Part shown: positions 627 to 22,623 of the stretch, piece by piece | Layout of the letters: the number at the start of each line of letters is the position of its first letter | Numbering within the stretch: the stretch's first letter is position 1 | Assembly: GCA_029262755.1 (NCBI GenBank) | Contig: JAJCYU010000038.1 | Location: 1-40,565 of the forward strand | Reading direction: 5' to 3' | Length of the DNA: 40,565 bases | Source of the DNA: Anaerolineae bacterium | Lineage (GTDB): Bacteria > Chloroflexota > Anaerolineae > Epilineales > Epilineaceae | Made by a program: the position numbers and the translations under genes | The notes under the pieces: generated by a model | Seen by the model: only the letters and a program-made list of their open reading frames with translations | Told to the model about the DNA's origin: nothing | Databases searched by the model: none

Positions 627-2129
<1,503 letters not shown>

Positions 2130-2176
2130 GGGGCGCCTTCCGTGCCCGGTACCGGGCGTGTAGAACGAGCGAGAAG

Positions 2177-3763: not shown

Positions 3764-3777
3764 CGGGCGGCCCCGGC

Positions 3778-4926: not shown

Positions 4927-4989
4927 CCTGCCCCCTGCACGCGAGTCGGCCGCGGGCCAACGAGGGCCCGAGACGCACGATCGGCGGGC

Positions 4990-5019
4990 ATCATAACGTG
5001 CCCTATCGGGAAGGGTCAA
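4990..5019 (-). promoter_or_regulatory. Sigma70-type promoter of the acyl-CoA dehydrogenase/carboxylase operon
   Basis: On the minus strand TTGACC (5014-5019), an 18-bp spacer and TATGAT (4990-4995). Transcription would start near 4983, giving a leader of about 57 nt before the ATG at 4926. This is the best -35/-10 pair seen in the window. Confidence 0.65.
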
Positions 5020-5124: not shown

Positions 5125-5172
5125 TACGGTCGCGGCCACGTTCGCGGCTACGGCTGCGGCTACGGCTGCGGG
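5125..5172. repeat. Short GGCTAC/GGCTGC tandem repeats at the protease 3' end
   Basis: The plus strand reads as alternating GGCTACG, GGTCGCG and GGCTGCG units that run across the stop codon of the protease gene (TAG at 5160-5162) into the intergenic region. The last few codons of the protease lie within it. Looks like slippage-generated simple sequence in GC-rich DNA. Confidence 0.5.
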
Positions 5173-6821
5173 TTCAGGAGGGGCAGCCGGATCACGAATG
5201 CCGGCGCAGGCTCGCCCGTCGGCGTGGGCGTGGCGCTGCCCGCCGTGGACGTCGGCGAGACCGCCGCCGTCGGAGGAGGTGGCGTGCTCGTCGGCGCGTC
5301 CGGTGTTGCGGTAGCTTCCGGCGTGGCGCTGGCCGGCGGCGGCGTCGGGGTGGTCGTGGCGGGCGGCGTTGTCGGGGTGACGGTCGGCGGCAGCGTCGGC
5401 GTCGGCGAAGGCGGACCGGCCGGCGGTGTCACGTCGCTCAGAACGTCGTGGGCGCGGTCGACGCGGATCGTGCTGATCTCCATGCCCTCGAGGCGGATCG
5501 TCGGCCGCTGGCCCGTATCGGCCAGAGCCGCCAGAACATCGTCCGGCCCGGCCCATTCGAAGGCGCCGTAGAGCAAGGCCAAGGCGCCGGCGACGTGTGG
5601 CGCGGCCATCGAGGTGCCGCCCTGGCTGCGGTTGCGACCACCGATGAAGGTCGAGTCGACATCGACGCCGGGGGCGAGCAGGTCGAGGGTCGCGGAACGA
5701 TTGGTGAAATCGGCCACCTGGGCCGCCGCGCCTTGCGCGTCCGTGACGGCGCCCACGGCGATGACGTCCGCGACGCAGGCCGGTGCGGACATCTTGTTGC
5801 GTTCCCCGTCGTTGCCCGACGCCGCGACCACGCTCACGCCCTTGGCCTTGAGCGCCGCGACGGCCGCCGCGATCGGCCGCGTGAAGCCGTCCGCGGTGTC
5901 GCAATCGCCCGCGTACGTACTCGTCGTGCCGAGACTCATGTTCGCCACGCGCGCGACGTCTTCTTGAAGCAGGTAGTCCAACGAGGCCAGGATGCCGGTG
6001 CCGAAGGCGTTGCCCCGTTCCTCGATCATCTTGATGGCAACGATGCCTGCGTCGGGCGCCACACCGAATCCGGTCTGCCGGCCCCGTGAGGCTACGATGC
6101 CTGCCACGTGGGTCCCATGCCCATCAATGTCCTCCGCCGGATTCGGTTCGGCGGGGCATAGTTCGGCCGGGGAGATGAAGCAGCGCTGGGCCACGATGCC
6201 CGTCCGCAGATCCAGATGGTTGGTGTCGATGCCCGTATCGAGCACGGCTACGTTGATCCCCTCGCCCGTAACGCGCGCGCGGCGCAGCTTGTCCGCCCCG
6301 ATGAAAGGCACGCTGCTCTCGAGCATCGGCACGCCGAACAGGCGGAGCGTGGGGTCCTCCGTGATCGCGAGCACAGAGGGATGGCGTGCGATGGCCACGC
6401 GGCCGGCCCGGTCAGCGCGCACCACGAGCGCCGGCACCTGCCGGTAGCGCGCGAGCAGCTCGATGGGGCCGTGTGGGGGTCGCGCGGCGTCTTGCGACGG
6501 GCGTCCAGCCGCGGAGGCGATCCCGAGGTCGTCCAGCAGCGCGTCGCCCGCCGCGGCAATCGCCGGCGGGTCCGCGGCCGGCGCATCGAGCGCCACGATG
6601 AAGCGCGTCCCTTCGCCCTCGATCATGCGCGCGTCCAATTTGCCCGCCGGCCCCCGCTCGTCCGCGACCGTCGGATCGTCGCCGCCAGAGATAGGATCGC
6701 CCACGCGTCGCGCCCCGGCCCGCGGGGTGACAGCCGTGAGCGCCGTGGCGACGACCAACGAGGCGGCAAACGCGACGGCGCACATCCGCGCCAAACGGGC
6801 GCTTCGGGTGGGACGGGACAT
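5160..6821 (-). CDS. Secreted subtilisin-like (S8) serine peptidase with Thr/Pro-rich C-terminus
   Basis: 553 residues. A signal peptide (basic start, hydrophobic 13-32, cut probably after PRAGA) is followed by an I9-like propeptide (about 72-162, beginning RFIVALDAP) and the catalytic domain: Asp195 (VAVLDTGID), His235 (GHGTHVAG), oxyanion Asn337 (AASGNDGE) and Ser404 (GGTSMAAPH). All four key residues are intact, so it should be active outside the cell. Residues 465-540 are a Thr/Pro/Ser-rich linker, and the chain ends with a short hydrophobic tail (FVIRLPLLNPQP) like those of other secreted proteins in this group. ATG 6819-6821 has GGAG 9 nt upstream; the frame is open further upstream to 6974, but only this start puts the signal peptide at the N-terminus. 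Confidence 0.93.
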   Translation of the reverse strand: MSRPTRSARLARMCAVAFAASLVVATALTAVTPRAGARRVGDPISGGDDPTVADERGPAGKLDARMIEGEGTRFIVALDAPAADPPAIAAAGDALLDDLGIASAAGRPSQDAARPPHGPIELLARYRQVPALVVRADRAGRVAIARHPSVLAITEDPTLRLFGVPMLESSVPFIGADKLRRARVTGEGINVAVLDTGIDTNHLDLRTGIVAQRCFISPAELCPAEPNPAEDIDGHGTHVAGIVASRGRQTGFGVAPDAGIVAIKMIEERGNAFGTGILASLDYLLQEDVARVANMSLGTTSTYAGDCDTADGFTRPIAAAVAALKAKGVSVVAASGNDGERNKMSAPACVADVIAVGAVTDAQGAAAQVADFTNRSATLDLLAPGVDVDSTFIGGRNRSQGGTSMAAPHVAGALALLYGAFEWAGPDDVLAALADTGQRPTIRLEGMEISTIRVDRAHDVLSDVTPPAGPPSPTPTLPPTVTPTTPPATTTPTPPPASATPEATATPDAPTSTPPPPTAAVSPTSTAGSATPTPTGEPAPAFVIRLPLLNPQP

Positions 6822-7220
6822 GGGAAGACTCCGGGGGCGGTTGCAGGGGGCGGTCGTCGGGGAGGGTGGGTGGTAGAGATCCGCGCGTGCGGACCGTATT
6901 CGCTGGGTCAACGCGCGACGGAGTAGGCCAACGGCACGGGCCGATTGCACCTGTCCATGGCGCATCCCGAGCACACGTTCCTATGCGTCCGCGATCGCGG
7001 CACGCTGCTTGCGGACCGTCCTGAGACATTCCCCGGCCCGATCGCCCGATTATAATGACACGCTTGGATGTGGGCTCATCGGGCGACTGCGGTGCCGAAC
7101 GTTACGTGTCGAGCGGACCGGTTCCCGGTATCGCGACCTTCGCCACGCGATTGTTTCGGCTGTTGCATACCGTTTGCCGTTCGCTTCCCTCCCTCTTCTG
7201 CTCGTCCCCATGGATGAAAA
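6822..7220. other. Divergent intergenic region, protease / VanW-family gene
   Basis: A 399-bp gap between two divergent genes. It holds a TATAAT box (7051-7056) pointing toward the VanW-family gene, a leader of ~165 nt and a possible 12-codon leader ORF (7210-7248). On the minus strand TTGACC (6906-6911) could be a -35 for the protease, but I see no matching -10. No RNA gene or riboswitch was recognised. Confidence 0.5.
7029..7056 (+). promoter_or_regulatory. Putative promoter of the VanW-family gene
   Basis: A perfect -10 TATAAT at 7051-7056; the -35 is weak (TTCCCC, 7029-7034, 16-bp spacer). The start would be near 7063, leaving a leader of ~160 nt before the coding region. Confidence 0.5.
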
Positions 7221-9135: not shown

Positions 9136-9199
9136 GCCTCACGTAGGCATGTTCCATTTGCAACAAGCCGCGCGAGCACACCCTAAGGAGACATGGAGC

Positions 9200-10285
9200 A
9201 TGGCGGATAGCAAAGATCGCAAGAAGGCACTCGAAACGGCGATCAGCCTCATCAAGCGGCGCCACGGTGATGGCGCCATCATGAAGCTCGGCGAGCAGAC
9301 CGATCTGATCGTCGAATCCATCCCCACGGGCTCGTTGGCGCTCGACGCCGCGCTTGGTGTCGGCGGCGCGCCCCGAGGGCGGGTCATCGAGATCTACGGC
9401 CCGGAATCGTCCGGCAAGACCACGGTGTGCCAGCACATCATTGCCGAAGCACAGAAGATGGGCGGCACGGCGGCATTCATCGACGTCGAGCACGCGATGG
9501 ATCCGGTGTACGCCGCCAAGTGCGGTGTCGACATCGACGCGCTGCTGATCTCACAGCCGGACGCCGGCGAGCAGGCGCTCGACATTGCGGAAGCTCTCGT
9601 GCGCTCCGGAGCCATCGATGTGGTCGTGATCGACTCGGTCGCGGCCCTCGTGCCACGGGCGGAGATCGAAGGCGACATGGGCGACTCGCACGTCGGCCTG
9701 CAAGCCCGTCTCATGAGCCAGGCGCTGCGCAAGCTGACGTCGGCCATCAGCAAGTCGCACACGATGGTGATCTTCACCAACCAGTTGCGGCAGAAGATCG
9801 GCGTGATGTTCGGCAGTCCCGAGACCACTTCCGGTGGCATGGCGCTGAAGTTCTACGCAAGCGTGCGGCTCGATATCCGACGCATCGAGGCCATCAAGCA
9901 TGGCGGCGAGGTGATCGGCAACCGCACACGCGTCCGCGTCAAGAAGAACAAAGTTGCCCCGCCCTTCCGCCAAGCCGAGTTCGACATCATCTACAATGAG
10001 GGCATATCCCGCTCCGGTGACGTGCTCGACATGGCGGTCGTCCATGAGATCGTGGATAAGCGCGGCTCCTACTACTTCTACAACGACGAACGTGTGGGCC
10101 AGGGCCGTGAGAACGCAAAGACGGCGCTGCGCGACAATCCGGAGCTCGCCTTCGAGATCGAGAACAAAGTACGCGTCGTGCTCGGCTTCTCGCCGCTTGA
10201 CGCTCCGGCTGAGTGGCCGAAGCCGGCAGCCGAAGAGGCAGCCGAGGAGACGGAGACGGCGCAGGCCGAGCTCGTCGAAGCGTAG
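9200..10285 (+). CDS. recA: DNA recombination and repair protein RecA
   Basis: Forms ATP-dependent filaments on single-stranded DNA for strand exchange and SOS activation. 361 residues: Walker A GPESSGKT (67-74), Walker B VVVIDSV (141-147), loop L1 [14 protein letters not shown] (157-170), loop L2 around [10 protein letters not shown] (204-213), and KNKVAPPFR later in the core. The acidic C-terminal tail ([17 protein letters not shown]) is typical. The frame opens at 9149, but ATG 9200 has AAGGAG 9 nt upstream and gives the standard N-terminus ([12 protein letters not shown]). Followed by a terminator-like hairpin and recX. Confidence 0.98.
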
Positions 10286-10310
10286 CCCGCAGTTCAGGAC
10301 GGCCAGCCAC

Positions 10311-10357
10311 ACGCGGCGGGGTGGGGCGCACGCCCTCCCCCGCCGCGTTTCTTTTCT
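10311..10357 (+). terminator. Rho-independent terminator-like hairpin between recA and recX
   Basis: ACGCGGCGGGG (10311-10321) pairs perfectly with CCCCGCCGCGT (10338-10348); the 16-nt middle can pair a little more. It is followed by TTTCTTTTCT. It lies after the recA stop and before recX (10390), the place where partial termination limits recX expression in other bacteria. Confidence 0.8.
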
Positions 10358-10389
10358 GACGACCAAGCCCATTCCAGACGCTGAGCGCC

Positions 10390-11031
10390 ATGGCCGAGAT
10401 CACCCTCTTACAACTCCAACGCAAGCGCAGCGACCGCGTCAACGTCTTCCTCGACGAGGAGTACGCGTTCTCGGTTGCCCTCGTCTTGGCCGAGACCCTG
10501 AAGAGAGGGCAGCGCTTATCCCCGGCTGAGATCGATGCATTGCAGACCGAAGATGCCTACCGGGAAGCGTTGGACCGCTCCATAGGCTTGCTTGCTCGGC
10601 GGCCCCGAAGTCGGGTCGAGATTGAGCGCGCGCTGGAACGCAAAGAGATTCCCGCAGACGTAGTGCAACGCGTGGTGGAACGCCTCGTCGAGCTCGACTA
10701 CCTAGACGATGATGCCTTCGCCGCGTGGTGGGTGCAGAACCGCCAAACCCACAGGCCCCGTGGTCGCTGGGCCCTACGGCAGGAGCTCTCCGCCAAGGGG
10801 GTCGGAAGCGACGCCATCGCGGCCGCGATCGTGGCCGTCGACGAGCAGGTCGTGGCCCGCGAGGTCGCACTGCGGCGGGCGCCGCGGTATCGGGGGCTGG
10901 ATCGAGAAGGGCTCACGACGAAGCTGGGTGCCTACCTCCGTCGCCGGGGCTTTCCCTACCAGGCGGTGCACGCCGCGTTGGACGCCGCGTGGGAAGAACT
11001 CCACGCCGGAGACGACGACCCCGACGGGTAG
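10390..11031 (+). CDS. recX: Regulatory protein RecX
   Basis: Small modulator that binds RecA filaments and limits their activity. 213 residues, all helical, with three tandem three-helix repeats: ALDRSIGLLARRPRSRVEIERALERKEI, then VVERLVELDYLDDDAFAAWWVQNR with the family's 'LxxxxYLDDxxFA' pattern, and a last repeat ending QAVHAALDAAWEEL. The N-terminal ~55 residues form the usual beta-rich extension. Position directly after recA supports the call. The ribosome-binding site is weak, and a strong hairpin separates it from recA, so it is probably made at a low level by read-through. Confidence 0.92.
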   Translation: MAEITLLQLQRKRSDRVNVFLDEEYAFSVALVLAETLKRGQRLSPAEIDALQTEDAYREALDRSIGLLARRPRSRVEIERALERKEIPADVVQRVVERLVELDYLDDDAFAAWWVQNRQTHRPRGRWALRQELSAKGVGSDAIAAAIVAVDEQVVAREVALRRAPRYRGLDREGLTTKLGAYLRRRGFPYQAVHAALDAAWEELHAGDDDPDG

Positions 11032-11312
11032 CCACCGCGTCCGAACGCTTCGTACAAGCCGGCGTAAAGCTCTGCGCCAGGGGGTTCCCGCGGGACTCCG
11101 AGCGCGCCCGTGACACGCAGGAAGCGGATCCATACAACCTGCGATTTTCCGAGGGACCGCCGTGATTTTTGGTCACGTAGGCCCCCTTGTGCCGCGACCT
11201 CGCCGGGGCCCTACGGTGCTGCGTTCGCGGATGGCAGGGACCATTCTCGTGTGGTATTCTCACCGGCAACACCGTAGACGTACATTACGATGAACGAGAG
11301 GGTATAGAAACC

Positions 11313-12842
11313 ATGGACCCCACCTCAGCCCTACTGGGCGTGCTGGTGGGCTTGGTCGGCGGAGGAGGGCTGGGTTACGCCATCTTCCGCGTACAGGAGC
11401 GCCGCAAAGTACAGGCGGCGACCGATGCGGCATCGAACGTCATGAAGGAGGCCGAAGGTGCGGCGAGGGAGACCGTACTTGCGGCTAAGGACGAGGCGCT
11501 GGAAATCCGTGCGCGTGCCGAAGAAGAAGTCGGCCGCAAGCGAGGTGAGTTGGAAAAGGATCAGGAACAACTCAGCAAGCGCCGCGAAAAACTCGATCGC
11601 CGTTTTGACCAGGCCGAGCAGCGTGCCCGTACGCTAGATGAGCGGGAACGCGATCTGCAGGACCGCAGTCGCGAGATGGAACAACACGAGGAAAAGGCGC
11701 GCATCGAGTTTGCGCGCATTGCTGAGTTGACGCCCGAAGAGGCACGGATTCAGATCCTCGAGCAGGTCGAAGAAGAGACGCGTGCCGATTCGGCGCGTGT
11801 CATCCGTGATATCGAGAACGAAGCGCGCGATGCCGGCGAGGAACGTGCGCGAAAGATCGTCGTCACCTGTATCCAGCGCTGCGCTTCGGATACGGTAAGC
11901 GAGATCGTTTCCTCGACGGTCGCCTTGCCTTCCGATGAGATGAAGGGCCGCATCATCGGCCGCCAGGGACGCAACATTCGTGCCTTTGAACAAGCCACGG
12001 GCGTCGACGTCATCGTCGACGATACGCCTGAAGCCGTGACCTTGTCCTGCTTCGATCCGGTTCGACGCGAGATCGGCCGCAGGTCGTTGCTCGCGCTGAT
12101 CCAGGACGGCCGGATCCATCCGGCTCGCATCGAGCAGATCGTCAAGAAGGAAGGCGACGCGCTCGACAAGGTCCTGATCAAGGCCGGCGAGGATGCCGCT
12201 TTCGAGGCCGGCGTGCCGCGTCTCCACAAGGAGATCATTCGGCTGCTCGGTCGCCTCAAATACCGCACGAGCTACGGCCAGAACGTGCTCGACCACTCCG
12301 TGGAGGTCGCACACCTTGCGGCCATGCTGGCCCACGAGGTCGGCGCGAACCCGGAATTGGCCCGGGCCGGCGGACTGTTGCACGACATCGGCAAGGCGGT
12401 CACCCACGAGGTGGAAGGACCCCACGCGCTGGTCGGAGCCGATCTAGCTCGCAAGTACGGTGTGGGGCCGATGATCGTGAACGCGATCGCGTCCCACCAC
12501 CACGAGGAAGAGCCGGAGACGCTCGAGGCCATTCTCGTGGAGTCGGCCGATGCAATCAGCGGCGCGCGCCCCGGCGCGCGGCGTGAGTCGCTCGAGCTCT
12601 ACATCAAGCGCATCAAGGCACTTGAGAACATCGCCCGGGGTTTCCAGGGCGTCGAAGAGAGCTACGCCATCCAAGCGGGTCGCGAGATCCGCATCCTCGT
12701 TCGTCCGGAGCAGATCGACGATTTGGCCGCGGCGCGTTTGGCGCGCGACGTGGCGCGCAAGGTCGAGGAGACGCTCGAGTACCCCGGCCAGGTCAAGGTG
12801 ACGGTGATTCGTGAGACGCGCGCCGTGGACGTTGCCAAGTAG
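11313..12842 (+). CDS. rny: Ribonuclease Y (membrane-anchored endoribonuclease)
   Basis: Initiates mRNA decay at the membrane. 509 residues: N-terminal transmembrane helix (about 5-25), a long Arg/Glu-rich coiled coil (30-190), a KH RNA-binding domain with the GxxG loop GRIIGRQGR (212-220), and an HD domain with the metal pair His357-Asp358 (GLLHDIGK) and downstream AIASHHHEEEP. The frame opens at 11187, but ATG 11313 has GAGAGGG ~10 nt upstream and places the membrane helix at the N-terminus as in all RNase Y proteins. Its neighbours recA-recX upstream and spoVS downstream recall the Bacillus order recA...rny-ymdB-spoVS; no ymdB is present. A RicT homologue lies 1 kb away. Confidence 0.97.
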   Translation: MDPTSALLGVLVGLVGGGGLGYAIFRVQERRKVQAATDAASNVMKEAEGAARETVLAAKDEALEIRARAEEEVGRKRGELEKDQEQLSKRREKLDRRFDQAEQRARTLDERERDLQDRSREMEQHEEKARIEFARIAELTPEEARIQILEQVEEETRADSARVIRDIENEARDAGEERARKIVVTCIQRCASDTVSEIVSSTVALPSDEMKGRIIGRQGRNIRAFEQATGVDVIVDDTPEAVTLSCFDPVRREIGRRSLLALIQDGRIHPARIEQIVKKEGDALDKVLIKAGEDAAFEAGVPRLHKEIIRLLGRLKYRTSYGQNVLDHSVEVAHLAAMLAHEVGANPELARAGGLLHDIGKAVTHEVEGPHALVGADLARKYGVGPMIVNAIASHHHEEEPETLEAILVESADAISGARPGARRESLELYIKRIKALENIARGFQGVEESYAIQAGREIRILVRPEQIDDLAAARLARDVARKVEETLEYPGQVKVTVIRETRAVDVAK

Positions 12843-12908
12843 TGGCGGATCGGGCGGAGGTGCGCGTCTTGCCTTGGTGTCGCACGCAACATGCGCCGCA
12901 ACAGGTGC

Positions 12909-12941
12909 CCACGGTCGGAATACTCGATCCGGCCGTGGTTT
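12909..12941 (+). terminator. Hairpin after rny
   Basis: CCACGGTCGG (12909-12918) pairs with CCGGCCGTGG (12929-12938) with one G-T wobble around a 10-nt loop and is followed by TTTA. It probably ends the rny transcript before the spoVS promoter region. Confidence 0.5.
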
Positions 12942-12984
12942 AGGAATATTGAGCGATCGACCAGGATAGCGAGTCCGGCAGTGG

Positions 12985-12990
12985 TATAGT
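12985..12990 (+). promoter_or_regulatory. Possible -10 element for spoVS
   Basis: TATAGT at 12985-12990, 36 bp before the spoVS ATG. No convincing -35 at the right distance. Confidence 0.3.
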
Positions 12991-13026
12991 GCCTAACCGT
13001 GGTATCCCCCCGTGGAAGGTCGAACA

Positions 13027-13527
13027 ATGCCTGATATGATCAAGGTCTCCGCGCAGTCCCTCACGACCGCAGTGGCCGGAGCGATCGCGGGCGTAGTCCG
13101 CGACCACGGCCGCGCCGATGTGCAAGCAATCGGCGCAAGCGCGGTCAATCAGGCCGTCAAGGCCATAGCCATCGCACACGGCTATCTCGAAGAAGACGAG
13201 TTGGACATCTACTGTCTGCCGGCCTTCGTCGAGGTGGACATCGGTGGCCAAGAGCGCACGGCCATTCGCTTCGCGGTCGAGGTGCAAGGCAACGACTTCG
13301 TTCCGCGCCTAGCAGGCGGACAAGACGGTTCGGATAGCCACGGCAAGCGTGGCGACTATGCGCGCCGAGCCCGTGGTACCGCGTCCTCCGCACATCCGAA
13401 CGCCGGCGATACCCAGGACGAGCACGCATCGGGCGGGCAGGCGCAGGACGATACCGAGCCGCCCTTTGGCTCCGTCTCCGATTCCGGAGAGCGTGGCGCC
13501 TACCCCTACGCCGAGGAAGAAGACTAA
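13027..13527 (+). CDS. spoVS: SpoVS-family protein with long disordered C-terminal tail
   Basis: Residues 1-90 match the small Alba-like SpoVS fold: MIKVSAQSLTTAVAGAIAG, ADVQAIGASAVNQAVKAIAIA, LPAFVEVDIGGQERTAIRFAVEV. In Bacillus the protein is ~86 residues and affects sporulation; in non-sporulating bacteria its role is unknown. Here 166 residues: the last ~75 are hydrophilic and low in complexity (Gly, Asp, Ser, Ala, His), ending in an acidic EEED. ATG 13027 was preferred to the GTG at 13012 because GGAAGGT lies 6-7 nt upstream. It sits between rny and the convergent ricT. Confidence 0.88.
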   Translation: MPDMIKVSAQSLTTAVAGAIAGVVRDHGRADVQAIGASAVNQAVKAIAIAHGYLEEDELDIYCLPAFVEVDIGGQERTAIRFAVEVQGNDFVPRLAGGQDGSDSHGKRGDYARRARGTASSAHPNAGDTQDEHASGGQAQDDTEPPFGSVSDSGERGAYPYAEEED

Positions 13528-13764
13528 ATCTTCGTCTAGCTTGCATTCGCGGGCTCGGCAGCCACGGCGCTCGCGCCGGCGGTCCGCTGGTGATCGGCTA
13601 GCGCTCCACGATCGCCTCGTCCCATCGAAGCGCCTGCGCGTCACATTAGCTGCCTCACTACCCGCATCGGCAAGCTGGTTGGACTACTAGGTCGTGTCGC
13701 TGCCTCTCCGTACCGCAACGGCCGTGCACGACGGAATCGTCGCGCACGGCACCGGTACGCCACT

Positions 13765-13796
13765 CGTACAAGTTCGCGTTCACGCGAACTCGTGCG
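13765..13796. terminator. Inverted repeat between convergent spoVS and ricT
   Basis: AGTTCGCG (13771-13778) - TTCA - CGCGAACT (13783-13790) is a perfect 8-bp stem. After one mismatch it extends by five more pairs (13765-13769 with 13792-13796). It has no U tract, but it stands in the convergent gap just beyond the ricT stop. Terminator or transcript-end structure for either gene. Confidence 0.45.
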
Positions 13797-13804
13797 CAGT
13801 CGGC

Positions 13805-15547
13805 TCAGGTCTGCGAACCTCCGCCACTACCGCCGCCCGTGCCGCTATCGCCGCCACCGGAATTTCCGCTTCCGGAGCCGCCACTGGGCTTCCGCCGCCT
13901 TCGCCGCCGCTTGCGGCGCTTCGCACCGCCCTCGCCGGCAGGGCCTCCCGGAGCGCTATCACCTCGGCTACGCGATCCACTATCTTGCGGGCCACGATCC
14001 GTCGAAGGCGCTCCGCTATCACGGCTGGAATCGGCGCCCGAACCGGAGTCGTTCGGGCCGCTACCGCTAGCGCTGCTCCCACCACCGCGACGACGCCGTC
14101 CGCGTCCGCGGCCTCGGCCACGCCCACGTCCGCGGCCGCGGCCCTTGCCGCCGCCCTCGCGATCCGCGTCACCGGAACCCTCACCTGTCGTCCGCGGCGC
14201 TGTGGCTCCCCCTGTGGCTCCTCCGGTGTCGCCTCGCGGCGTGGTCGGGTCTCCGGGGACCGGGGCCTGATCGTCCGTCGCTTCGCGGGATCGAGCTTCT
14301 GCATCATCGTCGCGTGATGCGCCGCCGCGGCCCGATCGACCTCGCCGTGAACGGCTTGCAGCTTTTTCGCGCTCGCTCTTGCGTACGGCGCGCTCCGCGG
14401 CGGCGGCCCTTGCCTTCTCGGCCGGGGTACCGCCCGACGCCTCGGCCTCGCCGAAGGCCTTCGTCCAACGCTCACGCTGCTCGACGAAGGCGTCGCCGTC
14501 CACGACCACGCGCGAACCGTCTTCCCAGAGCACGGACACCTTGCGCGTCAGGAGGTTGACGTCCACCACGCGGCCTCGACCGACCGCGCTGGTGAGCTTC
14601 GCACCCACCTTGGGCATGCCGGTCTTGAGGTCGCGATATTGATCATCCTCGAATGCCAGGCAGCACAACAGTTTGCCGCACACGCCGCTGATCTCGTTAG
14701 GGTTGAGGGGTAGTCCCTGGTTCTTGGCCATGCGGATCGAGATCGGCTGGAAGTCCGGCATCCAGGAGCTGCAGCACAACTCGCGGCCGCAGCGATCGAT
14801 GCCACCGATGAGCTTGGCCTTGTCGCGCGGACCCACCTGGCGCAACAGGACGCGCGTCTTGCGGCTCCGCGCCAGATCGCGCACGAGCAGCCGGAAATCA
14901 ACGCGCTTCTTCTCGCTCGTGAAGTAGACCGTCAGGCAGCTGCCGTCGTAGTTGTATTCGGCCCGCACGGCGCGCATCGGCAGCCGGTGCTGCTTGATTT
15001 GCTCGCTGGCCTCGCTAAGCGCCGCCGGGGCTTCCGTCTCGAGCCGCGCCATGGTGCGAATGTCATTCTCCGTCGCACGGCGCTTGATGCGCTTGAGCTT
15101 GCCGAGCCGCGAGCCGACGACCTGATCCGGCGCGATGACGACGTAGCCGGCCTCGATGCCCTGGGCCGTATCGACCACGACCTGTTCGCCGACGGTAAGG
15201 TCCGGCTCCGCGCCGGCATGGAAGTAGTAGATCCGCCCCGCACGCTTGAACCGTACGCCCACGACAGGCGGACCTTCGCGCTTGGGCTTCGACTCGCTGC
15301 GATCTCGATCCGCATCCGGCGCGTCGTCTCCGTCTGCCCCCACTTCCTCCGCTCCAGCCGGGTGTGCGGTCGCTTCGTCCGATGCGGCGGGTACGGCAGC
15401 ATCGGTCGCGGGAACATCCTGCCGCGCGGGCGATGCCGCCGATTCTTCGGGCGACGGTGCCTCAGCGGCGGACGGCCTGGAATCCGAGGCGTCCGCGGAG
15501 CGCGGGGTGGAGGCTGCGGCGTCGTCCTGTTCGTGTCGTTCGTCCAT
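13805..15547 (-). CDS. ricT: RicT/YaaT-type PSP1-domain Fe-S protein with RGG-like tail
   Basis: In Bacillus, RicT (YaaT) with RicA and RicF binds Fe-S clusters and adjusts RNase Y cleavage. Here: an acidic/Ala-rich disordered start (1-90), the PSP1 core (about 92-360) with both cysteine motifs, C253-x4-C258-C259 and C290-x4-C295-C296, then a ~220-residue tail. The tail holds an uninterrupted Gly-Arg run (about 468-489, DNA 14081-14146), a Lys/Arg block (543-553) and a Gly/Ser end (554-580). Typical RicT proteins are ~275 residues, so this one is about twice as long because of the two flanks. It lies 16 bp after holB, the same pair order as in Bacillus (holB-yaaT), and convergent with rny-spoVS. 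The core assignment is firm; the RNA-binding role of the tail is inference. Confidence 0.92.
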   Translation of the reverse strand: MDERHEQDDAAASTPRSADASDSRPSAAEAPSPEESAASPARQDVPATDAAVPAASDEATAHPAGAEEVGADGDDAPDADRDRSESKPKREGPPVVGVRFKRAGRIYYFHAGAEPDLTVGEQVVVDTAQGIEAGYVVIAPDQVVGSRLGKLKRIKRRATENDIRTMARLETEAPAALSEASEQIKQHRLPMRAVRAEYNYDGSCLTVYFTSEKKRVDFRLLVRDLARSRKTRVLLRQVGPRDKAKLIGGIDRCGRELCCSSWMPDFQPISIRMAKNQGLPLNPNEISGVCGKLLCCLAFEDDQYRDLKTGMPKVGAKLTSAVGRGRVVDVNLLTRKVSVLWEDGSRVVVDGDAFVEQRERWTKAFGEAEASGGTPAEKARAAAAERAVRKSEREKAASRSRRGRSGRGGASRDDDAEARSREATDDQAPVPGDPTTPRGDTGGATGGATAPRTTGEGSGDADREGGGKGRGRGRGRGRGRGRGRRRRGGGSSASGSGPNDSGSGADSSRDSGAPSTDRGPQDSGSRSRGDSAPGGPAGEGGAKRRKRRRRRRKPSGGSGSGNSGGGDSGTGGGSGGGSQT

Positions 15548-15563
15548 GGTGGACGGCTCTCTC

Positions 15564-16610
15564 TCAGGCCGTGGAAACGGCCGGTGGATGGTTCAGGGTA
15601 GGCAGGCCGAGGAGTAGGACCTCCAAGACCAGCTGCGGGCTACCGTGGGCGGCCAACTCCGCCAGGGCGCGTTCGGTGGCGCGCAGGGCGTCGACGATAC
15701 GTGCGGTGGGGAGGGAGGCCGCTACGGGGCGCATCAACGGGCCGCGATCACCGTGTACGAAGGCCTCATCCACCCCGAGGTTGAGCAGGAGTAGATCGCG
15801 CCACCAGCCGTTCCAGAGTGTGAGTCCCGCCGGCAACGCGTCGCGATCCTTGGCCAGCGCATCGGCCAAAGCCATGCGCTCGGCTCGATCGGCGCCAACA
15901 ATGGTCTGTACTCGGTCGAGCCACTGCTCGTGCAAGGCGAGGGCATCCGCGTCGCCCAAAATCGCGATCGCGCGGCCCAGACAGCCGGCGCTCAGGCGCG
16001 CAAGCCGATCCGCTTCCGCGGCATCGGCGCCCCATCCAGCTTGGAGCGCAGACGCAGCGTCGGGCGGGGATAGAGGGCGCAGCAACAGACGGCGCGCACG
16101 GGATCGGATCGTCGGGAGCACTTCGGGCTCCGCGGCCGTGGTCAGCAACAGCGTGGCGTGTGCGGGCGGCTCTTCGAGCAACTTGAGCAAGCTGTTCGCT
16201 GCGCCGATCGACGCGGCCTCGATGAGCGGCAGCACGGCCACGCGATGCGCGGACTCGCTCGGCGCGAGCGCCAGCGCGGACTGCAATTCGCGCGCGGCCT
16301 CGATGCGCAGCGGTGTCTCGACCCAATGCAGGTCCGCATGGCCGCCCTGGGCGACGAGCCGGCAGGCCCGACATGCGCCGCAGGGTTGCTCTTCGGGTGC
16401 GCTCGTGCACAGCAACGCCTGCGCGATGCGACGCGCGAGCGTGCGCTTGCCGACGCCTTCCGGACCGGCCAGCAATACGGCGTGACCGAGCGAACCGGAG
16501 CGCGCGGCGCGCTCCAGGCCCGCGAGGACCTTGGCGTGGCCGTGAATTGGCACCCGATGGGTGGCCGACGTGGCGAGCACGTCGTTGGCTTGCGGGGAGG
16601 CGGACGTCAT
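15564..16610 (-). CDS. holB: DNA polymerase III delta' subunit
   Basis: Clamp-loader subunit. 348 residues: Walker A-like GPEGVGKR (49-56), a four-cysteine zinc module (Cys68, 77, 80, 83; PCGACRAC), then AANSLLKLLEEPP and PTIRSRARRLLLRPL, the region of the SRC-type arginine finger; here the motif reads SRAR, without the usual Cys. The C-terminal third is helical and weakly conserved, as usual. Its place directly upstream of ricT is conserved in Gram-positive bacteria. 54 bp separate it from the propeller gene upstream. Confidence 0.93.
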   Translation of the reverse strand: MTSASPQANDVLATSATHRVPIHGHAKVLAGLERAARSGSLGHAVLLAGPEGVGKRTLARRIAQALLCTSAPEEQPCGACRACRLVAQGGHADLHWVETPLRIEAARELQSALALAPSESAHRVAVLPLIEAASIGAANSLLKLLEEPPAHATLLLTTAAEPEVLPTIRSRARRLLLRPLSPPDAASALQAGWGADAAEADRLARLSAGCLGRAIAILGDADALALHEQWLDRVQTIVGADRAERMALADALAKDRDALPAGLTLWNGWWRDLLLLNLGVDEAFVHGDRGPLMRPVAASLPTARIVDALRATERALAELAAHGSPQLVLEVLLLGLPTLNHPPAVSTA

Positions 16611-16664
16611 GCGAGCAAGGCTAGCATGCTCGGGGGTGCTCGGTAAGCGCTACGCCCCGCGTCT

Positions 16665-17972
16665 TCACGGCAGATCGACCAACCAGAGGTCCCGCTCGCG
16701 CTCGTCCAACCACGCCATCGAGCCGCCGTCCGGCGAGATCGACCAATCGTTGCCCGCGATCCGGATGCCCAGATCGGCAGCCAAGAGCAGGCGGGTGGCA
16801 CCCGTGTCCGCGTCGAGCTGCCACAGTTCCTGCCCCTCTACGTCCAGGCCAAACGGCACGTAGGCCAAGGTGCTGCCCGTTCGCCACCGATACGCACCCA
16901 CCACGTCAAGCTTCCGCGCGGCGCCGTAGCTATCGGTCTGGGTGGGCGCCAGCCAGACCCCGTTGCGGGTCGGGTTGGCCCGGTCGAGGCTGGTCAGGTA
17001 CGCCACCCAGCGCCCGTCCGGCGAGAGCAAGGGTTCGGCCAACCATTCTCCGCGCGCGAGCTCGACCATGTCGCCGTCCAAGGTATTGAGGCGCAGCAGC
17101 GAATAGAGGGGGCGTTCCCGAAAGGGCCGTCCCAAGACGAGTACGTGAATGCTGTCCGGCAGGAACTCGACCACTCGCAGACCCCAGAGCGAAGCAAGCT
17201 CCACCGGCTCACCGCCACGCGCCGCAGCCGTCCAAACCCTGTTCAGGCCGTCCACATCGGCGCGGCCGCCCGTCGCCTCCCACCACACCGCCCGCGCGCC
17301 GTCGGGTGAGAGCAACAAGGGATTGCCGTCCGTAGGCAAGGTCCAACGCTCTCCGGAGATGCTGTCGCGCACGACGCTGACATTGCCCTGGGGCTCCACC
17401 CGCAGGCTCATCGCACCGGGCACCCGCCCGATCTCTCTGTCGACCACCCGGCCTTGCGCACCGGGTGGCCAGGCGTCGACACCGTATAGGGCCGTAACGG
17501 GCGCCCCTGCCGGCCGATCGATGTAGAGGACGGTGGCGCTGTCGGCGGACCACCAGGCGCCGGGGCAGCACCCGCCCGCGAGCAGACGGCGCGGCGCACC
17601 GGGCATCGTGCCACGCGACAAGCGCGGTGCGGCGGGCGCGGTGGGCAACACCGGGATCGTCGGCGGCACGACGACCGCCGAGGGCGGCATGGTCGGGCGC
17701 GGAGCGCCGCCCAATACGCCCGCCAGCCCGATCGCCGCTTCGCCCACGACCTGGCGTGCGTCTCGGCTCAGCCGGTCTCCGGCCTCGCTCAGGTCCGCGG
17801 GCAACACGGCCGCGCCCTCGCGCACCGCGATGGCCAGGGCCAGCGCACCCACCACAGGCAACGCGGCGGCCACCACCAACATGCGACGCGCAAACGGTCC
17901 GCGACGGCCGGCGCGCTCGCGTCGTCGCGCCGCACGCTCACGCGCGGTAGTGCGACCCATCCGTCCGCTCAC
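16665..17972 (-). CDS. Membrane-anchored TolB-like beta-propeller protein
   Basis: 435 residues: a very basic cytoplasmic start (1-30), one transmembrane helix (31-50), a Pro-rich linker (90-118) and a beta-propeller built of PD40-like repeats (LLLSPDGARAVWW, PLLSPDGRWVAYLT, WSISPDGGSMAWLDE). It should be held outside the membrane. A Cys-Cys pair (135-136) opens the propeller. The specific role is unknown. The start is GTG 17972, only 3 bp after the M23 peptidase stop, or ATG 17960 (residue 5). The spacing shows it is co-expressed with the peptidase, and a role in the cell wall is a fair guess. Confidence 0.8.
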   Translation of the reverse strand: MSGRMGRTTARERAARRRERAGRRGPFARRMLVVAAALPVVGALALAIAVREGAAVLPADLSEAGDRLSRDARQVVGEAAIGLAGVLGGAPRPTMPPSAVVVPPTIPVLPTAPAAPRLSRGTMPGAPRRLLAGGCCPGAWWSADSATVLYIDRPAGAPVTALYGVDAWPPGAQGRVVDREIGRVPGAMSLRVEPQGNVSVVRDSISGERWTLPTDGNPLLLSPDGARAVWWEATGGRADVDGLNRVWTAAARGGEPVELASLWGLRVVEFLPDSIHVLVLGRPFRERPLYSLLRLNTLDGDMVELARGEWLAEPLLSPDGRWVAYLTSLDRANPTRNGVWLAPTQTDSYGAARKLDVVGAYRWRTGSTLAYVPFGLDVEGQELWQLDADTGATRLLLAADLGIRIAGNDWSISPDGGSMAWLDERERDLWLVDLP

Positions 17973-17975
17973 CGT

Positions 17976-18797
17976 TCAGCTGCCGTCCGCGGGAAGGGCG
18001 TGCACGAAGTTGTTGAGCAACGGGCCGCCGAACGTGATCTCGGGCTGATCGTCCATGGCCTGCCAACGACGCGGATCTTCCAGGTTGCGCTCGAAGCGCT
18101 GCGGGCTCGCACCGAGCAGGGCGAGCCCGTGCCAGTCCGCGTCGATGAAGTGCACCGGGTTGAAAGCGCGGCGCAGGCTCTCGTCGCGGATCTCGAGGTG
18201 CAGGTGAGGCGATGCGTAGCAGGTCTCGTACATATCACCCGACAACGCAATCGCTTGTCCCTTCGTCACGGTCTGGCCGACCGCGAGCGCGGGTCGCTCC
18301 AACAGATGGCCATAGAAGCTCACGATGCCGCCTGCATGGCTGATCATCATATTGTGCGGCAAAGCGCCACCGGGGCCGTCGACGCTACGCACGGTACCAT
18401 CCGCGACTGCTGCGATCGGCGTGCCGCACGCGGCTGCGAAGTCCATGCCCATGTGCAGACCTTGGCCCGCCCGGTAGATCGTGGCGCGCTCGTAGTACGC
18501 GTAAATCGTGTTGCCGTAGGGTTGGGCGAGGTACCAGCTACCCAGCCCGGGCGGCTCGACAAATGGCAGGCCGAAATCGATTCCCTGCGCCACGGTCGAC
18601 TCGGGCGAGGGACGTGCCCACGCCGATTCCGGCGCGAGCAACACCGTCACGAGCGCCATCGCGAACGCGGCGCCGAACGTCGCACCGCGCGCAACACGAC
18701 TGGCGCGACCCGAAGCGGTGCGCCCCCTCCGCGTGCACGGCGAATCCGTGCCCGTCACGAGTGCGTTGGCACGGAGCTGCGCGCTCGCGCGCATCAT
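17976..18797 (-). CDS. Secreted M23 (LytM-type) metallopeptidase
   Basis: Probable peptidoglycan endopeptidase. 273 residues with a long N-region, a hydrophobic stretch (41-55) and a likely signal cleavage after SAWA (~61). The LytM zinc site is complete: His115 and Asp119 (HMGMD), His164 (FYGHL) and the pair His198/His200 (SPHLHLEI). ATG 18797 overlaps the SRPBCC stop by ATGA, so translation is coupled. It is one of two wall-degrading enzymes in the same run of genes (the other is the amidase at 20204-21400). Confidence 0.9.
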   Translation of the reverse strand: MMRASAQLRANALVTGTDSPCTRRGRTASGRASRVARGATFGAAFAMALVTVLLAPESAWARPSPESTVAQGIDFGLPFVEPPGLGSWYLAQPYGNTIYAYYERATIYRAGQGLHMGMDFAAACGTPIAAVADGTVRSVDGPGGALPHNMMISHAGGIVSFYGHLLERPALAVGQTVTKGQAIALSGDMYETCYASPHLHLEIRDESLRRAFNPVHFIDADWHGLALLGASPQRFERNLEDPRRWQAMDDQPEITFGGPLLNNFVHALPADGS

Positions 18798-19318
18798 GGT
18801 GCGGACCCCGCCGCCGGCTCGGCCGCCGTCTGGGAAGCAGACCCCGCCGCGGAACCTGTTGCGGGCTGCTCTTCAGCGATCCGCTTGAAACGGGCCAGGC
18901 CCTCGGTGAGTTCGCTTTCCGCTCGTCCGATCATGGCGCGCGCCCCGATCCGGGCGATCATGGATCGGAACTGCAACTCGACGGTCTGTCGGAAGCGCGT
19001 AGAGGATCCCCCCTTGCCTACGGCCTCCAAGAGCCACGTTACGTCCGCCTGAACGCTCAAGGCCTCGTGCGAGCCCCCGACCACCATCTGATTCGGCGGA
19101 TCCAGCTCCCTCACCCGCGCGTCGAGCGTGAGCACGCGGTCGCCGTCCGCGCCGAGCACGACACGCACCCGAGACCCCTCCACGATCTCCTCTGCGTCAT
19201 GGAGCAACCGGATCTCCCGCAGATACGGGATGAAGGCTGAGGCGCGCTCGAAATCCATCAACGTGCGCCATACGTCCTCTGGCGGCCGCTTGATCACGAC
19301 GACGTGGTCAAGTTTCAT
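18794..19318 (-). CDS. SRPBCC-superfamily (START-like) protein
   Basis: 174 residues. The opening (MKLDHVVVIKRPPEDVWRTLMDFERASAFIPYLREIR) and closing helix (MIARIGARAMIGRAESELTEGLARFKRIAEE) are those of the polyketide-cyclase/CoxG-like hydrophobic-pocket fold. The ligand is unknown. The last ~25 residues are Ala/Ser/Gly/Pro-rich and disordered. AGGAG lies 8 nt before the ATG. The start overlaps the end of scpA by 11 bp and the end overlaps the M23 gene by 4 bp, so it is embedded in the coupled run. Confidence 0.85.
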   Translation of the reverse strand: MKLDHVVVIKRPPEDVWRTLMDFERASAFIPYLREIRLLHDAEEIVEGSRVRVVLGADGDRVLTLDARVRELDPPNQMVVGGSHEALSVQADVTWLLEAVGKGGSSTRFRQTVELQFRSMIARIGARAMIGRAESELTEGLARFKRIAEEQPATGSAAGSASQTAAEPAAGSAP

Positions 19319-20207
19319 CGTCCCACTCCTCTCCGGTGAATGCGCCGCCCTCGCCGGGAACGGCGACTGTAGCTAGGGCCGAGCGGGCTTCGATTCGAAT
19401 GTTGCCGAACAGATCGTCTTGGGTCACCCGCACGGCCCAGCGGCGCAGCATCTCGAGCAGCGCCAGAAAGCTCACGATGACGAACTCGCGCGGCTCAGCA
19501 TCGGCCGGTCGGCCGGAAAGCACGATTTCTTCAAACGACGCGCTGCCCTGTCGTAGCAGGATTTCGCGAATCGTCGTGAAGCGTTCACGCAGGTGAACGC
19601 GGTGGGCGCGTACGGGCGGCCCGGTAGGTTCGTTCGTCTGCTTGGCCGCCTCCGCCAAGGCACGACGGAACGCGGCCGCGAGGTCGTCGGCCGTCGCCTC
19701 GTCATCCGGACGGGGCGCCGGGCCGCTGGGTGCAGGCGGCGGCGCCGCGGCGCGCGGAAAGGCACGCAGCCCCTCGCGCTCGCGCTCGGCGAGCCCCTCC
19801 GCGACGCGGCGGTAGCGTCGATATTCGCGCAGGCGCTCAAGCAACTCGGCCGCGTCCGCGTCCTCATCCAGCTCGTCGCCGGGGGGTCGTGGTAGCAGCC
19901 ACCTGCTCTTGATCGATACGAGCGTTGCCGCCGTTTCGCAGAAATCGGCAAGCTCCGGCACGTCCACGGCTTGCAGCGTGGCAAGATGCTTGAGGTATTG
20001 GTCCGTCACCATGGCCAGGGAAACCGTGGACAAGTCCAGCGCCTCGCGCCGGATCAAGGTCAGCAGCAGCTCGAGCGGCCCTTCGAAGACCGGCAACACC
20101 ACCCTCCATCGCGATCCAGCGCGTTCGAGCACGGAGGGCGGCGCCTTCGTCGCGACGGGCTCGGGCACCCGTTCGTGCTCGGGCTGTGTCGCCGGGGCAT
20201 CGCTCAT
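19308..20207 (-). CDS. scpA: Segregation and condensation protein A
   Basis: Kleisin of the SMC-ScpAB condensin. 299 residues with the signature start of the domain (LPVFEGPLELLLTLIRREALDL...VTDQYLKHL), then LADFCETAATLVSIKSRWLLP, a Pro/Ala-rich middle and a C-terminal winged helix (SFEEIVLSGRPADAE...VSFLALLEMLRRWAVRVTQDDLFGNI). The frame is open to 20291; ATG 20207 was chosen because it overlaps the amidase stop as ATGA. scpB, normally the next gene, is absent: the next gene is the SRPBCC protein. Confidence 0.93.
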   Translation of the reverse strand: MSDAPATQPEHERVPEPVATKAPPSVLERAGSRWRVVLPVFEGPLELLLTLIRREALDLSTVSLAMVTDQYLKHLATLQAVDVPELADFCETAATLVSIKSRWLLPRPPGDELDEDADAAELLERLREYRRYRRVAEGLAEREREGLRAFPRAAAPPPAPSGPAPRPDDEATADDLAAAFRRALAEAAKQTNEPTGPPVRAHRVHLRERFTTIREILLRQGSASFEEIVLSGRPADAEPREFVIVSFLALLEMLRRWAVRVTQDDLFGNIRIEARSALATVAVPGEGGAFTGEEWDDET

Positions 20208-21400
20208 CGTCGTGCGGTCGGGCGACCGGCAATGGCGACCTCGGACAGGAGGCGGCGCTTCCAGTCGGCATAGAAACGCGGGCCGGGGCACGGTGTTTGG
20301 ACGAGCTCGCCGTGGCCGCGCACCACCTCGGGCGGCAGACCGAGATCGTCGAGCACGCGCGCGATGAGCATGGCCGTACGGGAAAGCTGCACGGGGCTGG
20401 GTGAGGCGTGTGCGAAGTCACCACTCAGCGCAATGCCAACCGCGACGGGGTTGAACTGCCGAACGTGATGGCTGACCGCGCTTAGGTCCTGGGTCTGCCA
20501 CACGGTGCCATCGATGCCGACGACAAAGTGGTAGCCGATGCCCGGCCACCCGTGCGCTTCCACGTGCTCGCGCGCGATGTCGTGCGGGGTGACCTCAGCG
20601 GGCGCGCCCGTGTGGTGGATGGCCACGTAGCGGATGTCGGCCAGGGGCCGTCGCGGGTAGCCGCCCTGCTTCGAGGGCAGCGTGTCGATCAAGTCGACCA
20701 CGGCCAGGTCTGCTCGTGGACCGGATGTGCCGTTCTCGCCGTGCAGGGCGCGCGCCATCCGAAGCCAATCCGAGCCCAGATCCCGCGGGCGCACACGACC
20801 CGGCGCATGCTCCTGCAACGCGAGGCGCTCAAAGAGTTGGGTTCGGATCCCATCCATGAGCAACTCCCCGCTGATCGGGGCGCCGCAGAGCGTGGGTCCA
20901 AAGTGCTCGTAGAACGAAAGAAAGGGCCCGCGCACCTCGTATCCGCTATCGCCGAACACGCGGCGCGGACCGACATCGGCGTCCGGACCCGCACGCGGCG
21001 GCGCCGGCGGCAGCGCGATGCCTTCCGGGACTGGATTGGGGGCCGGGGCCGGGGATGGGGACGGGGCCGAGGACGTTGCAGGGGCAGGCATAGGACCGGG
21101 CGAAGGGTCCGGCGCAGCGTTGGGCGTACGGTCCGGCGCAAGGTTGGGCGACGGCGGCGACAGGACGGGAGGCGTTTCGGGTGTCGCTTGCTCGGCCGGC
21201 CCGGAATATCCGGCCGACCCGGAATCTACCGCCGGCGCGATTGGTGTGGTCGCGTGGGCGCGACCCGTCTCCGTCGTTTCGAGCGCATCGGCAGCTTGCC
21301 GCACGTCCGACGCAGCCGGCGTATCGGACGGGTCGGAGGCGGTGTCCGTCGCGGCAGCCGCGGCGCGTCTCGTTTCCAGCAAGTATTCGTCGAAGATCAT
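20204..21400 (-). CDS. N-acetylmuramoyl-L-alanine amidase (Amidase_2/PGRP type)
   Basis: 398 residues. Residues ~1-145 are an Ala/Pro/Ser-rich low-complexity region with no clear signal peptide; a middle domain (VFGDSGYEVRGPFLSFYEHFGPTLCGAPI) precedes the C-terminal Amidase_2 domain: RYVAIHHTG (first Zn His), GIGYHFVVG, and VRGHGELVQTPCPG (second Zn His and the Cys ligand). The frame can be opened at a GTG (21451), but a TATACT box at 21433-21438 and GGGAG 7 nt before ATG 21400 favour the shorter form. How it leaves the cell is not apparent. First gene of the coupled run leading to scpA. Confidence 0.85.
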   Translation of the reverse strand: MIFDEYLLETRRAAAAATDTASDPSDTPAASDVRQAADALETTETGRAHATTPIAPAVDSGSAGYSGPAEQATPETPPVLSPPSPNLAPDRTPNAAPDPSPGPMPAPATSSAPSPSPAPAPNPVPEGIALPPAPPRAGPDADVGPRRVFGDSGYEVRGPFLSFYEHFGPTLCGAPISGELLMDGIRTQLFERLALQEHAPGRVRPRDLGSDWLRMARALHGENGTSGPRADLAVVDLIDTLPSKQGGYPRRPLADIRYVAIHHTGAPAEVTPHDIAREHVEAHGWPGIGYHFVVGIDGTVWQTQDLSAVSHHVRQFNPVAVGIALSGDFAHASPSPVQLSRTAMLIARVLDDLGLPPEVVRGHGELVQTPCPGPRFYADWKRRLLSEVAIAGRPTARR

Positions 21401-21432
21401 GCGTCGCTCCCGCGCTTCGGCATCGGTGGGTG

Positions 21433-21438
21433 AGTATA
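21433..21438 (-). promoter_or_regulatory. Putative -10 element of the amidase-scpA-holB-ricT run
   Basis: TATACT on the minus strand, about 33 bp before the amidase ATG. No -35 consensus at 16-18 bp. It would start a transcript of about 7.6 kb. Confidence 0.4.
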
Positions 21439-21521
21439 GCGCGCGGAGCACGCCTCGCGCCGACCCGAGCGCCCGTCACATCGTGCCGAGCGGGCCGGCC
21501 GCCGTACGGGCGATGGAACCC

Positions 21522-22232
21522 TCAGCCGAAACCCAAGCCGCGTTCGCGCAACGAGATCCATCCGCGGCGGGCCAGGATCACGTGGTCGAGCACCTCGATG
21601 TCGAGCAGCCGCCCCGCCGCCACGATACGTTTGGTGATACGCACATCGTCGGCGCTCGGCGCCGGATCGCCCGACGGATGGTTGTGGGCCAAGAGGATGG
21701 CGGGGCAGTTTCGCCGCACCGCCTCGCGGAAGACTTCGGAGACGCGAACCAGGCTGCCGGACACCGAGCCTTTGTAGAGCTCGTGCACCCCGAGGACGTC
21801 GTGCCGCACGCTCAGCAGGACGACGCGCAGGTGCTCCTGCTCGAGGAGGATCATCTCCGGGCCGAGCAATGCGACGGCGTCCGCCGGTGTAGACACGCGG
21901 CGCGGGGCGTCCGCCGCGGCGTCCAGCCGGTGCCCGAGCTCGATCGCCGCACGCAACTGCGCGGCCTTGGCCGGGCCGCAGCCCGCGACGCGGCAGAGCT
22001 CTTCGTTGGACGCCGCGGCGAGCCCGGCCAACCCGAATCGCCCCAGCAAGCGCTGGGCGAGGGTCAACGCGCTCTGCCCGCGCGCGCCCGTACCCACGAC
22101 GATCGCCACGAGCTCGGCCGTGGCGAGCGAACGCGGACCGGCGCGCGCCAGGCGCTCCCGCGGCTGCTCCACCACCGGCAGGTCGCGAATACGATCGCCC
22201 GTGGCACCGGGCTGTGACGAATCGGCGGACAT
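21522..22232 (-). CDS. radC: RadC family JAMM-domain protein
   Basis: 236 residues. N-terminal helix-hairpin-helix region (LCRVAGCGPAKAAQLRAAIELGHRL) and C-terminal JAB/MPN metalloprotease-like domain with the full motif HNHPSGDPAPSADD near residue 190. The family is widespread, of disputed function (not shown to be a DNA repair protein). CGGAG lies 8 nt before the ATG. Separated from the amidase gene by 121 bp containing a -10 box, so probably its own unit. Confidence 0.95.
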   Translation of the reverse strand: MSADSSQPGATGDRIRDLPVVEQPRERLARAGPRSLATAELVAIVVGTGARGQSALTLAQRLLGRFGLAGLAAASNEELCRVAGCGPAKAAQLRAAIELGHRLDAAADAPRRVSTPADAVALLGPEMILLEQEHLRVVLLSVRHDVLGVHELYKGSVSGSLVRVSEVFREAVRRNCPAILLAHNHPSGDPAPSADDVRITKRIVAAGRLLDIEVLDHVILARRGWISLRERGLGFG

Positions 22233-22623
22233 GGCAATGCTCCGGGCAGTGTCGGAGGGGGTGACGCCGGAAGCCGCACCCTAATCACGGAGCTCGCCCG
22301 CGCCGGTCGAGCAACCGGTACGCGCCGGGCGGTCGGGCCTTGCGGGGATCGGTCCGGTACTTGATCCGGGAGGCGATGGAATGGCGGTGCGGTATGCGGT
22401 TCGCGCGGCGACCGGCCGGCGCTACGAGCGCGCCCGGCAAGCCTACCGCCTCCGGCCGCTGCGCCGGGAGAGAGTTTGCGCCGTGTTCGCGCCCCGATCG
22501 CGACATGCGACGCGTGCTGCGGTGAGACCGCAACGGTTGGGGCGTCGGCGGAACCTTGCGACGCGGCGCGGGCCTCCTTTATACTCGTCCGCCCTGCCGG
22601 CGCCATTCCAATTGGGACGTGCC
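22233..22623. other. Divergent intergenic region, radC / HAD hydrolase
   Basis: A 391-bp gap. It contains the HAD gene promoter (22556-22585). The HAD frame stays open back to 22381, but the Arg-rich upstream translation and the promoter inside it argue that it is not coding. No RNA gene seen. Confidence 0.5.
22556..22585 (+). promoter_or_regulatory. Sigma70-type promoter of the HAD hydrolase-rnd pair
   Basis: TTGCGA (22556-22561), 18-bp spacer, TATACT (22580-22585). The start would be near 22592, about 32 nt before the HAD ATG. Confidence 0.6.

Follow-up and report, generated by a model that had tools for sequence, protein, structure and literature searches.

We analysed a window of 40,565 nucleotides from an Anaerolineae bacterium of the family Epilineaceae (GenBank assembly GCA_029262755.1, contig JAJCYU010000038.1), which is contig C38 of a 5.06-Mb draft genome of 428 contigs that is 84% complete. 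Positions 13805–21400 of the window carry a run of seven genes on the minus strand, including scpA, which encodes the kleisin of the SMC–ScpAB complex. The analysis centres on the junction of scpA with the Amidase_2 gene immediately upstream of it. Gene identities were assigned with Pfam and NCBIfam profiles, as follows.

21400–20204, minus strand: Amidase_2 gene (PGRP/T7-lysozyme-type amidase), 398 residues from ATG 21400; Pfam Amidase_2 68.9 bits, cut-off 26
20207–19308, minus strand: scpA, 299 residues; SMC_ScpA 81.6 bits, cut-off 24.6
19318–18794, minus strand: SRPBCC (Polyketide_cyc2/COXG-like) gene, 174 residues; Polyketide_cyc2 45.4 bits
18797–17976, minus strand: M23 peptidase gene, 273 residues; Peptidase_M23 70.6 bits; hydrophobic N-terminal segment
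17972–16665, minus strand: beta-propeller-like gene, 435 residues; weak PD40 match, 21.9 bits, cut-off 20.9; hydrophobic N-terminal segment
16610–15564, minus strand: holB (DNA polymerase III delta' subunit); DNA_pol3_delta2 140.5 bits, cut-off 27
15547–13805, minus strand: ricT (PSP1/YaaT); RicT_YaaT_fam 240.3 bits, cut-off 70; long low-complexity C-terminal tail
21438–21433, minus strand: TATACT, weak and isolated; possible −10 element ahead of the amidase ATG, absent from the promoter-scan output

The run is nearly gapless, as originally predicted, and every open reading frame (ORF) and overlap was verified in the sequence. The amidase gene overlaps scpA at ATGA, scpA overlaps the SRPBCC gene by 11 bp, and the SRPBCC and M23 genes again share ATGA; gaps of 3, 54 and 16 bp then separate M23 from propeller, propeller from holB and holB from ricT. 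From this spacing, a single transcription unit is plausible. The most likely amidase start is ATG 21400, which has GGAG ahead of it, and GTG 21451 is also in frame. The TATACT is compatible with an earlier guess of a transcript start near 21425 but does not prove it, and GTG 21451 lies upstream of it. A sigma-70 promoter scan of positions 13400–22500 returned no promoter-like site, with 0.5 expected in shuffles, and thus neither favours nor excludes inner promoters.

NCBIfam profiles gave further detail on three of the products. NF000994 covers residues 38–275 of the 299 in ScpA with 121 bits, under its equivalog cut-off of 234, and the N- and C-terminal parts of the predicted protein are both present. 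HolB scored 169.2 bits with TIGR00678, slightly below the cut-off of 180.6. An Rv0910-type toxin model matched the SRPBCC protein weakly (27.6 bits, cut-off 100), which was not taken to identify it.

An amidase gene recurs directly upstream of scpA

To place the run, we used 60 genomes including the window's own, 53 of which have scpA and 55 ricT. Around the 52 other scpA matches up to about 10 kb was taken per side, many of these surroundings being shortened by contig ends. At 20 of the 53 loci (window included), from 15 of 42 families, the kleisin part of scpA is immediately preceded by the end of a same-strand Amidase_2 gene. Adjacency at this frequency makes the junction unlikely to be a product of chance, and it holds with tight spacing across the 15 families, where ScpA is only 30–57% identical to that of the window.

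We searched for scpA starts (ATG, GTG or TTG) from −40 to +60 bases around the amidase stop; the counts come without a chance expectation. Seven of the 20 pairs have the scpA frame start at a 4-bp NTGA overlap with the amidase stop. In 11 others the frame starts elsewhere, with the closest start at −8 to +22 relative to that stop. No start was found within that range in G012 and G024. The coupled translation that the original prediction derived from overlapping starts therefore stands in part: coupling at the amidase–scpA junction recurs, and for the run as a whole one transcription unit is plausible. Among the papers listed on scpA with amidase or gene neighbourhood, for Chloroflexi/Chloroflexota and more broadly, none deals with such a pair, as judged by title and, for Chloroflexi/Chloroflexota, by the opening lines of the abstract.

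Several observations weigh against the explanation that we favour in a later section. The remaining 33 of the 53 loci have no amidase beside scpA, with at least 1.7 kb of upstream sequence present, and 8 further genomes of the class, all from family f31, have none within 1.5-kb flanks of scpA. The 7 of 20 NTGA overlaps, as noted, have no chance expectation to be read against. On the ScpA tree, the amidase label changes 11 times, so that the neighbour has been repeatedly lost or gained, and the tree is poorly resolved, with good support for 17 of its 56 inner branches. The contigs of G032, G049 and G054 end at the amidase, leaving adjacency there not assessable. The label is nonetheless clustered on the tree, since shuffles gave 16.9 changes and 1 of 500 was as low. 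In G022, the 447 bases past the amidase hold no recognisable scpA, and 18 loci outside the class showed no amidase within 1.5-kb flanks. Relatives of the amidase are also encoded away from scpA in several genomes, in G014 and G057 off the scpA contig.

This pattern could reflect a frozen ancestral operon, kept only for the promoter and ribosomes that scpA draws on from upstream, with the two proteins functionally unrelated. The many families lacking the pair, as seen at the 33 loci, and the amidase kin off the scpA contig in G014 and G057 favour such an operon; the adjacency and tight spacing kept in 15 families at such low ScpA identity argue against it. We give it slightly less than an even chance. 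It is compatible with the explanation that we prefer below, from which it differs only in denying a shared role.

The usual partners of ScpA are encoded elsewhere in the window's genome. The scpB gene lies on another contig (C163), and matches to SMC_N lie on C109 (first half) and C405 (last part), apparently one gene divided by contig ends. None of the 53 loci has scpB beside scpA on the same strand (47 have at least 1.3 kb downstream), and in two of them scpB lies 4–5 kb from scpA on the opposite strand.

A probable cytoplasmic location of the scpA-linked amidase

The window amidase has a single Amidase_2 domain in which the zinc ligands His, His and Cys are intact, at the positions known from T7 lysozyme and PGRPs. 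A conserved domain of ~70 residues precedes it. A structure model of these 240 residues reached a predicted local distance difference test (pLDDT) of 89.2 and a predicted template modelling score (pTM) of 0.65. Foldseek matched the model to phage endolysins and PGRPs, the best being the phage endolysins 6fhg (E 7.7e-13) and 6su5, and sequence matches were likewise to endolysins and PGRPs.

The relatives carry one to three Amidase_2 domains. The three ligands are complete in 19 of the 20 last or only domains and in none of the 19 others; only G008 departs from this, with a degenerate copy as its one detected domain. Between the domains of the larger amidases lie matches to coiled-coil models, all below cut-off. 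Three large scpA-linked amidases (L101 5432–9589, L074 5230–9285 and L098 5448–9635) have three Amidase_2 domains each, with ligands complete in the last only. Among 8 relatives scanned with Pfam, L101, L074, L106 and L120 showed a match to an NBR1-type Ig-like domain, above cut-off in L120 only. A glycosidase-like N-terminal part was suggested by NEPN-like strings in the large amidases and by Glyco_hydro_cc in one protein (19.8 bits, under the cut-off of 21); a PDB search with one of them found nothing at E 0.1, and the reading was dropped.

A simple hydropathy scan (12-residue windows over everything before the first domain) detected no signal-peptide-like N-terminal segment in any of the 18 linked amidases whose N-terminal side lies fully within the contig; those of G001 and G038 run off it on that side. 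Across all 20, the maximum was at most 1.92, except for 2.15 at an internal site of the G043 protein. As controls, the M23, propeller and VanW-like proteins of the window and the M23 protein of G001 reached 2.49–2.92. The other two of the six, the M23 protein of G002 and a subtilase, scored −0.56 and 0.45, probably because of a wrong start, and their failure tells against the scan, on which the absence of a signal peptide rests. Fifteen amidase relatives not seen beside scpA gave 0.67–1.99, with the high values at internal places, indicating that the missing export signal is a trait of the amidase family and not of the linkage. The amidase is probably a cytoplasmic protein.

The proposal that two types of enzyme cut the wall in this run is not supported. 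The M23 and propeller proteins of the window have hydrophobic N-terminal segments, whereas the scpA-linked amidases have none, and pairs of M23 and propeller genes also occur on other contigs.

Alternatively, like phage-type lysins, the amidase could leave the cell by a route that needs no classical signal and act as a division autolysin. Its best structural matches (6fhg and 6su5) and its sequence matches to endolysins and PGRPs favour this. Against it, the gene keeps its place next to scpA in several families, and a Pfam scan of 27 window ORFs gave no match to a phage family (PHROGs were not searched). We regard release as unlikely.

The seven-gene order is confined to one family

The taxonomic order of the window was represented by seven genomes, three of them from its family (the window's, G001 and G002). 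Among the genomes compared, the full gene order was seen in this family alone. In G001, contig C164 carries amidase, scpA and M23, without the SRPBCC gene at that place, and its last bases past the M23 stop resemble, by eye, the hydrophobic start of a propeller protein. Contig C389 of the same genome opens inside a propeller gene and continues with holB and ricT. The two contigs share no sequence overlap, and G001 probably has one unbroken run without SRPBCC that is split by a contig end. In G002, contig C66 carries amidase, scpA, SRPBCC, M23 and propeller, followed after ~0.5 kb by a subtilase ORF, and holB–ricT lies on C69, without the propeller and near a divergent moeA. Of the three family genomes, the window's and G002 therefore have the SRPBCC gene. 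Subtilase (Peptidase_S8) genes are located at 5160–6974 of the window and, after the propeller of G002, at 10100–13339 of L071.

G002 is closer to the window than G001 on the ScpA tree (support 99/97), and for that reason the join was probably present in the family ancestor and broken in G002; the alternative is a double gain. The order is thus limited to three genomes and broken in one of them, which is the lack of conservation beyond close strains that the original prediction had itself named as speaking against it.

None of the 52 other scpA neighbourhoods contains ricT. In the window ricT starts ~4.1 kb past the end of the ScpA match; 40 of the 52 extend at least that far downstream, and 12 are too short. 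Both genes are present in 48 genomes and share a contig in four: in the window, and at distances of 69 kb in G016, 736 kb in G033 and over 1 Mb in G036. A conserved link of scpA to replication, as had been suggested, is thus not borne out, and ricT is a partner of RNase Y in B. subtilis, not a replication gene.

The other pieces of the run also occur on their own. Surroundings were taken for 48 of the 54 other ricT matches. In 37 of them ricT is preceded on its own strand by holB (within 500 bp in 35); holB was not found in 10, and one was not assessable. The holB–ricT genes are a separate, older pair. M23 and propeller genes are neighbours at three loci off the scpA contigs: C228 of G001 (L257), C4 of G002 (L256) and C212 of G005 (L254).

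The close spacing of all seven genes, and an order that is probably continuous in G001 too except for the missing SRPBCC, are what one would expect if the run were a functional operon coordinating chromosome condensation, wall cutting and the clamp loader. Since ricT is not near scpA at any other locus compared, holB–ricT is a separate pair and M23–propeller also occurs elsewhere, there is no support for a shared control of segregation, cell division and clamp loading. The separation of holB–ricT in G002, a member of the same family, and an amidase lacking an export signal in the hydropathy scan count further against such an operon, which we consider very improbable.

RicT retains its cysteines near a convergent rny gene

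The window RicT has the exact motif CX4CCX30CX4CC, with six spaced cysteines, which is the spacing reported for RicT of Bacillota (PMC6751060). At the 48 ricT loci, the motif with 30 residues is present in 40 and with 31 residues in one; in seven it was not found. In B. subtilis, RicA and RicF are required for a stable RicT–RNase Y complex (PMC10470536). The RicA/RicF Pfam family (Com_YlbF, PF06133) had no match in 20 of the 21 genomes searched, including the window's own (84% complete), and a control search found it in B. subtilis. That the RicT cysteines are kept while this family is absent hints at a RicT–RNase Y link without RicA/RicF.

Two genes beside ricT belong to this context.

11187–12842, plus strand: rny (RNase Y), convergent to ricT
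13027–13527, plus strand: spoVS, the end of a recA–recX–rny–spoVS run

Over 9149–16610, recA–recX–rny–spoVS and holB–ricT converge. An rny gene is near ricT in 11 of the 48 loci, and 11 more have less than 2.5 kb of downstream sequence. Farther off, at 627–5019 on the minus strand, the window carries genes for a biotin carboxylase, a carboxyltransferase and an acyl-CoA dehydrogenase in a row.

A cluster probably joined from three older pieces

Taken together, the data make it fairly likely that the run is a genuine and probably co-transcribed cluster assembled from three older pieces within one family. The first would be the class-recurrent Amidase_2 gene with scpA immediately after it, the second the M23–propeller pair, with an SRPBCC gene in the window's genome and G002, and the third the holB–ricT pair. 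At the NTGA overlap, ribosomes that complete the amidase would start again on scpA, and the kleisin level would as a result track the amidase message. ScpA would do its usual job with SMC and ScpB supplied from elsewhere, and the amidase would probably be cytoplasmic and act on muropeptides in the manner of an AmpD-type recycling enzyme. The degenerate amidase domains of the larger relatives might serve as binders. None of this would require segregation, division and clamp loading to be controlled together.

A closer partnership can be envisaged, in which a cytoplasmic PGRP-type protein senses muropeptides from wall turnover and sets the amount or activity of ScpA. The recurrence of the pair, the combination of one ligand-complete domain with degenerate and possibly binding ones, and the sub-cut-off coiled-coil matches between domains of the larger members would fit. 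Most families, however, lack an amidase beside scpA, its kin are also encoded elsewhere, and the interaction is putative; we hold this partnership to be a long shot. In the boldest form of this idea, scpB, the gene usually found next to scpA, would have been replaced at that place in Anaerolineae by the gene of a cytoplasmic PGRP-type amidase. The amidase would sense fragments from wall turnover and adjust how much SMC–ScpAB is present or how active it is. Wall metabolism would then be linked directly to chromosome organisation, which we think quite improbable. On the preferred reading of three joined pieces, most of the run is ordinary. The amidase–scpA pair is marked by its recurrence, by an amidase without an export signal and by the degenerate extra domains of relatives, and is a specific, testable candidate through which wall metabolism and the SMC complex might be connected, in a class that has received little study.

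Comparison with known systems

The locus resembles the scpA–scpB gene pair in having a ScpA kleisin gene of the same family. Among the best 80 of 584 named loci, drawn from many phyla, 65 have a same-strand scpB within 2 kb past scpA. Of the 15 others, 8 are from Anaerolineae or Chloroflexi, and some are cut by contig ends. In the class studied here, by contrast, scpA has no adjoining scpB, and its upstream neighbour is the amidase in 20 of 53 loci.

The amidase shares its fold and zinc ligand pattern with Amidase_2 enzymes of the AmpD, PGRP and T7-lysozyme type, of which AmpD is cytoplasmic. It differs from them in the extra N-terminal domain of ~70 residues, in the tandem degenerate domains of many relatives and in the linkage to scpA.

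The holB–ricT end of the run is like the holB–yaaT(ricT) cluster of B. subtilis, with holB directly before ricT and a RicT bearing CX4CCX30CX4CC. The differences are that 20 of 21 genomes lack a Com_YlbF match and that ricT here is convergent with recA–recX–rny–spoVS.

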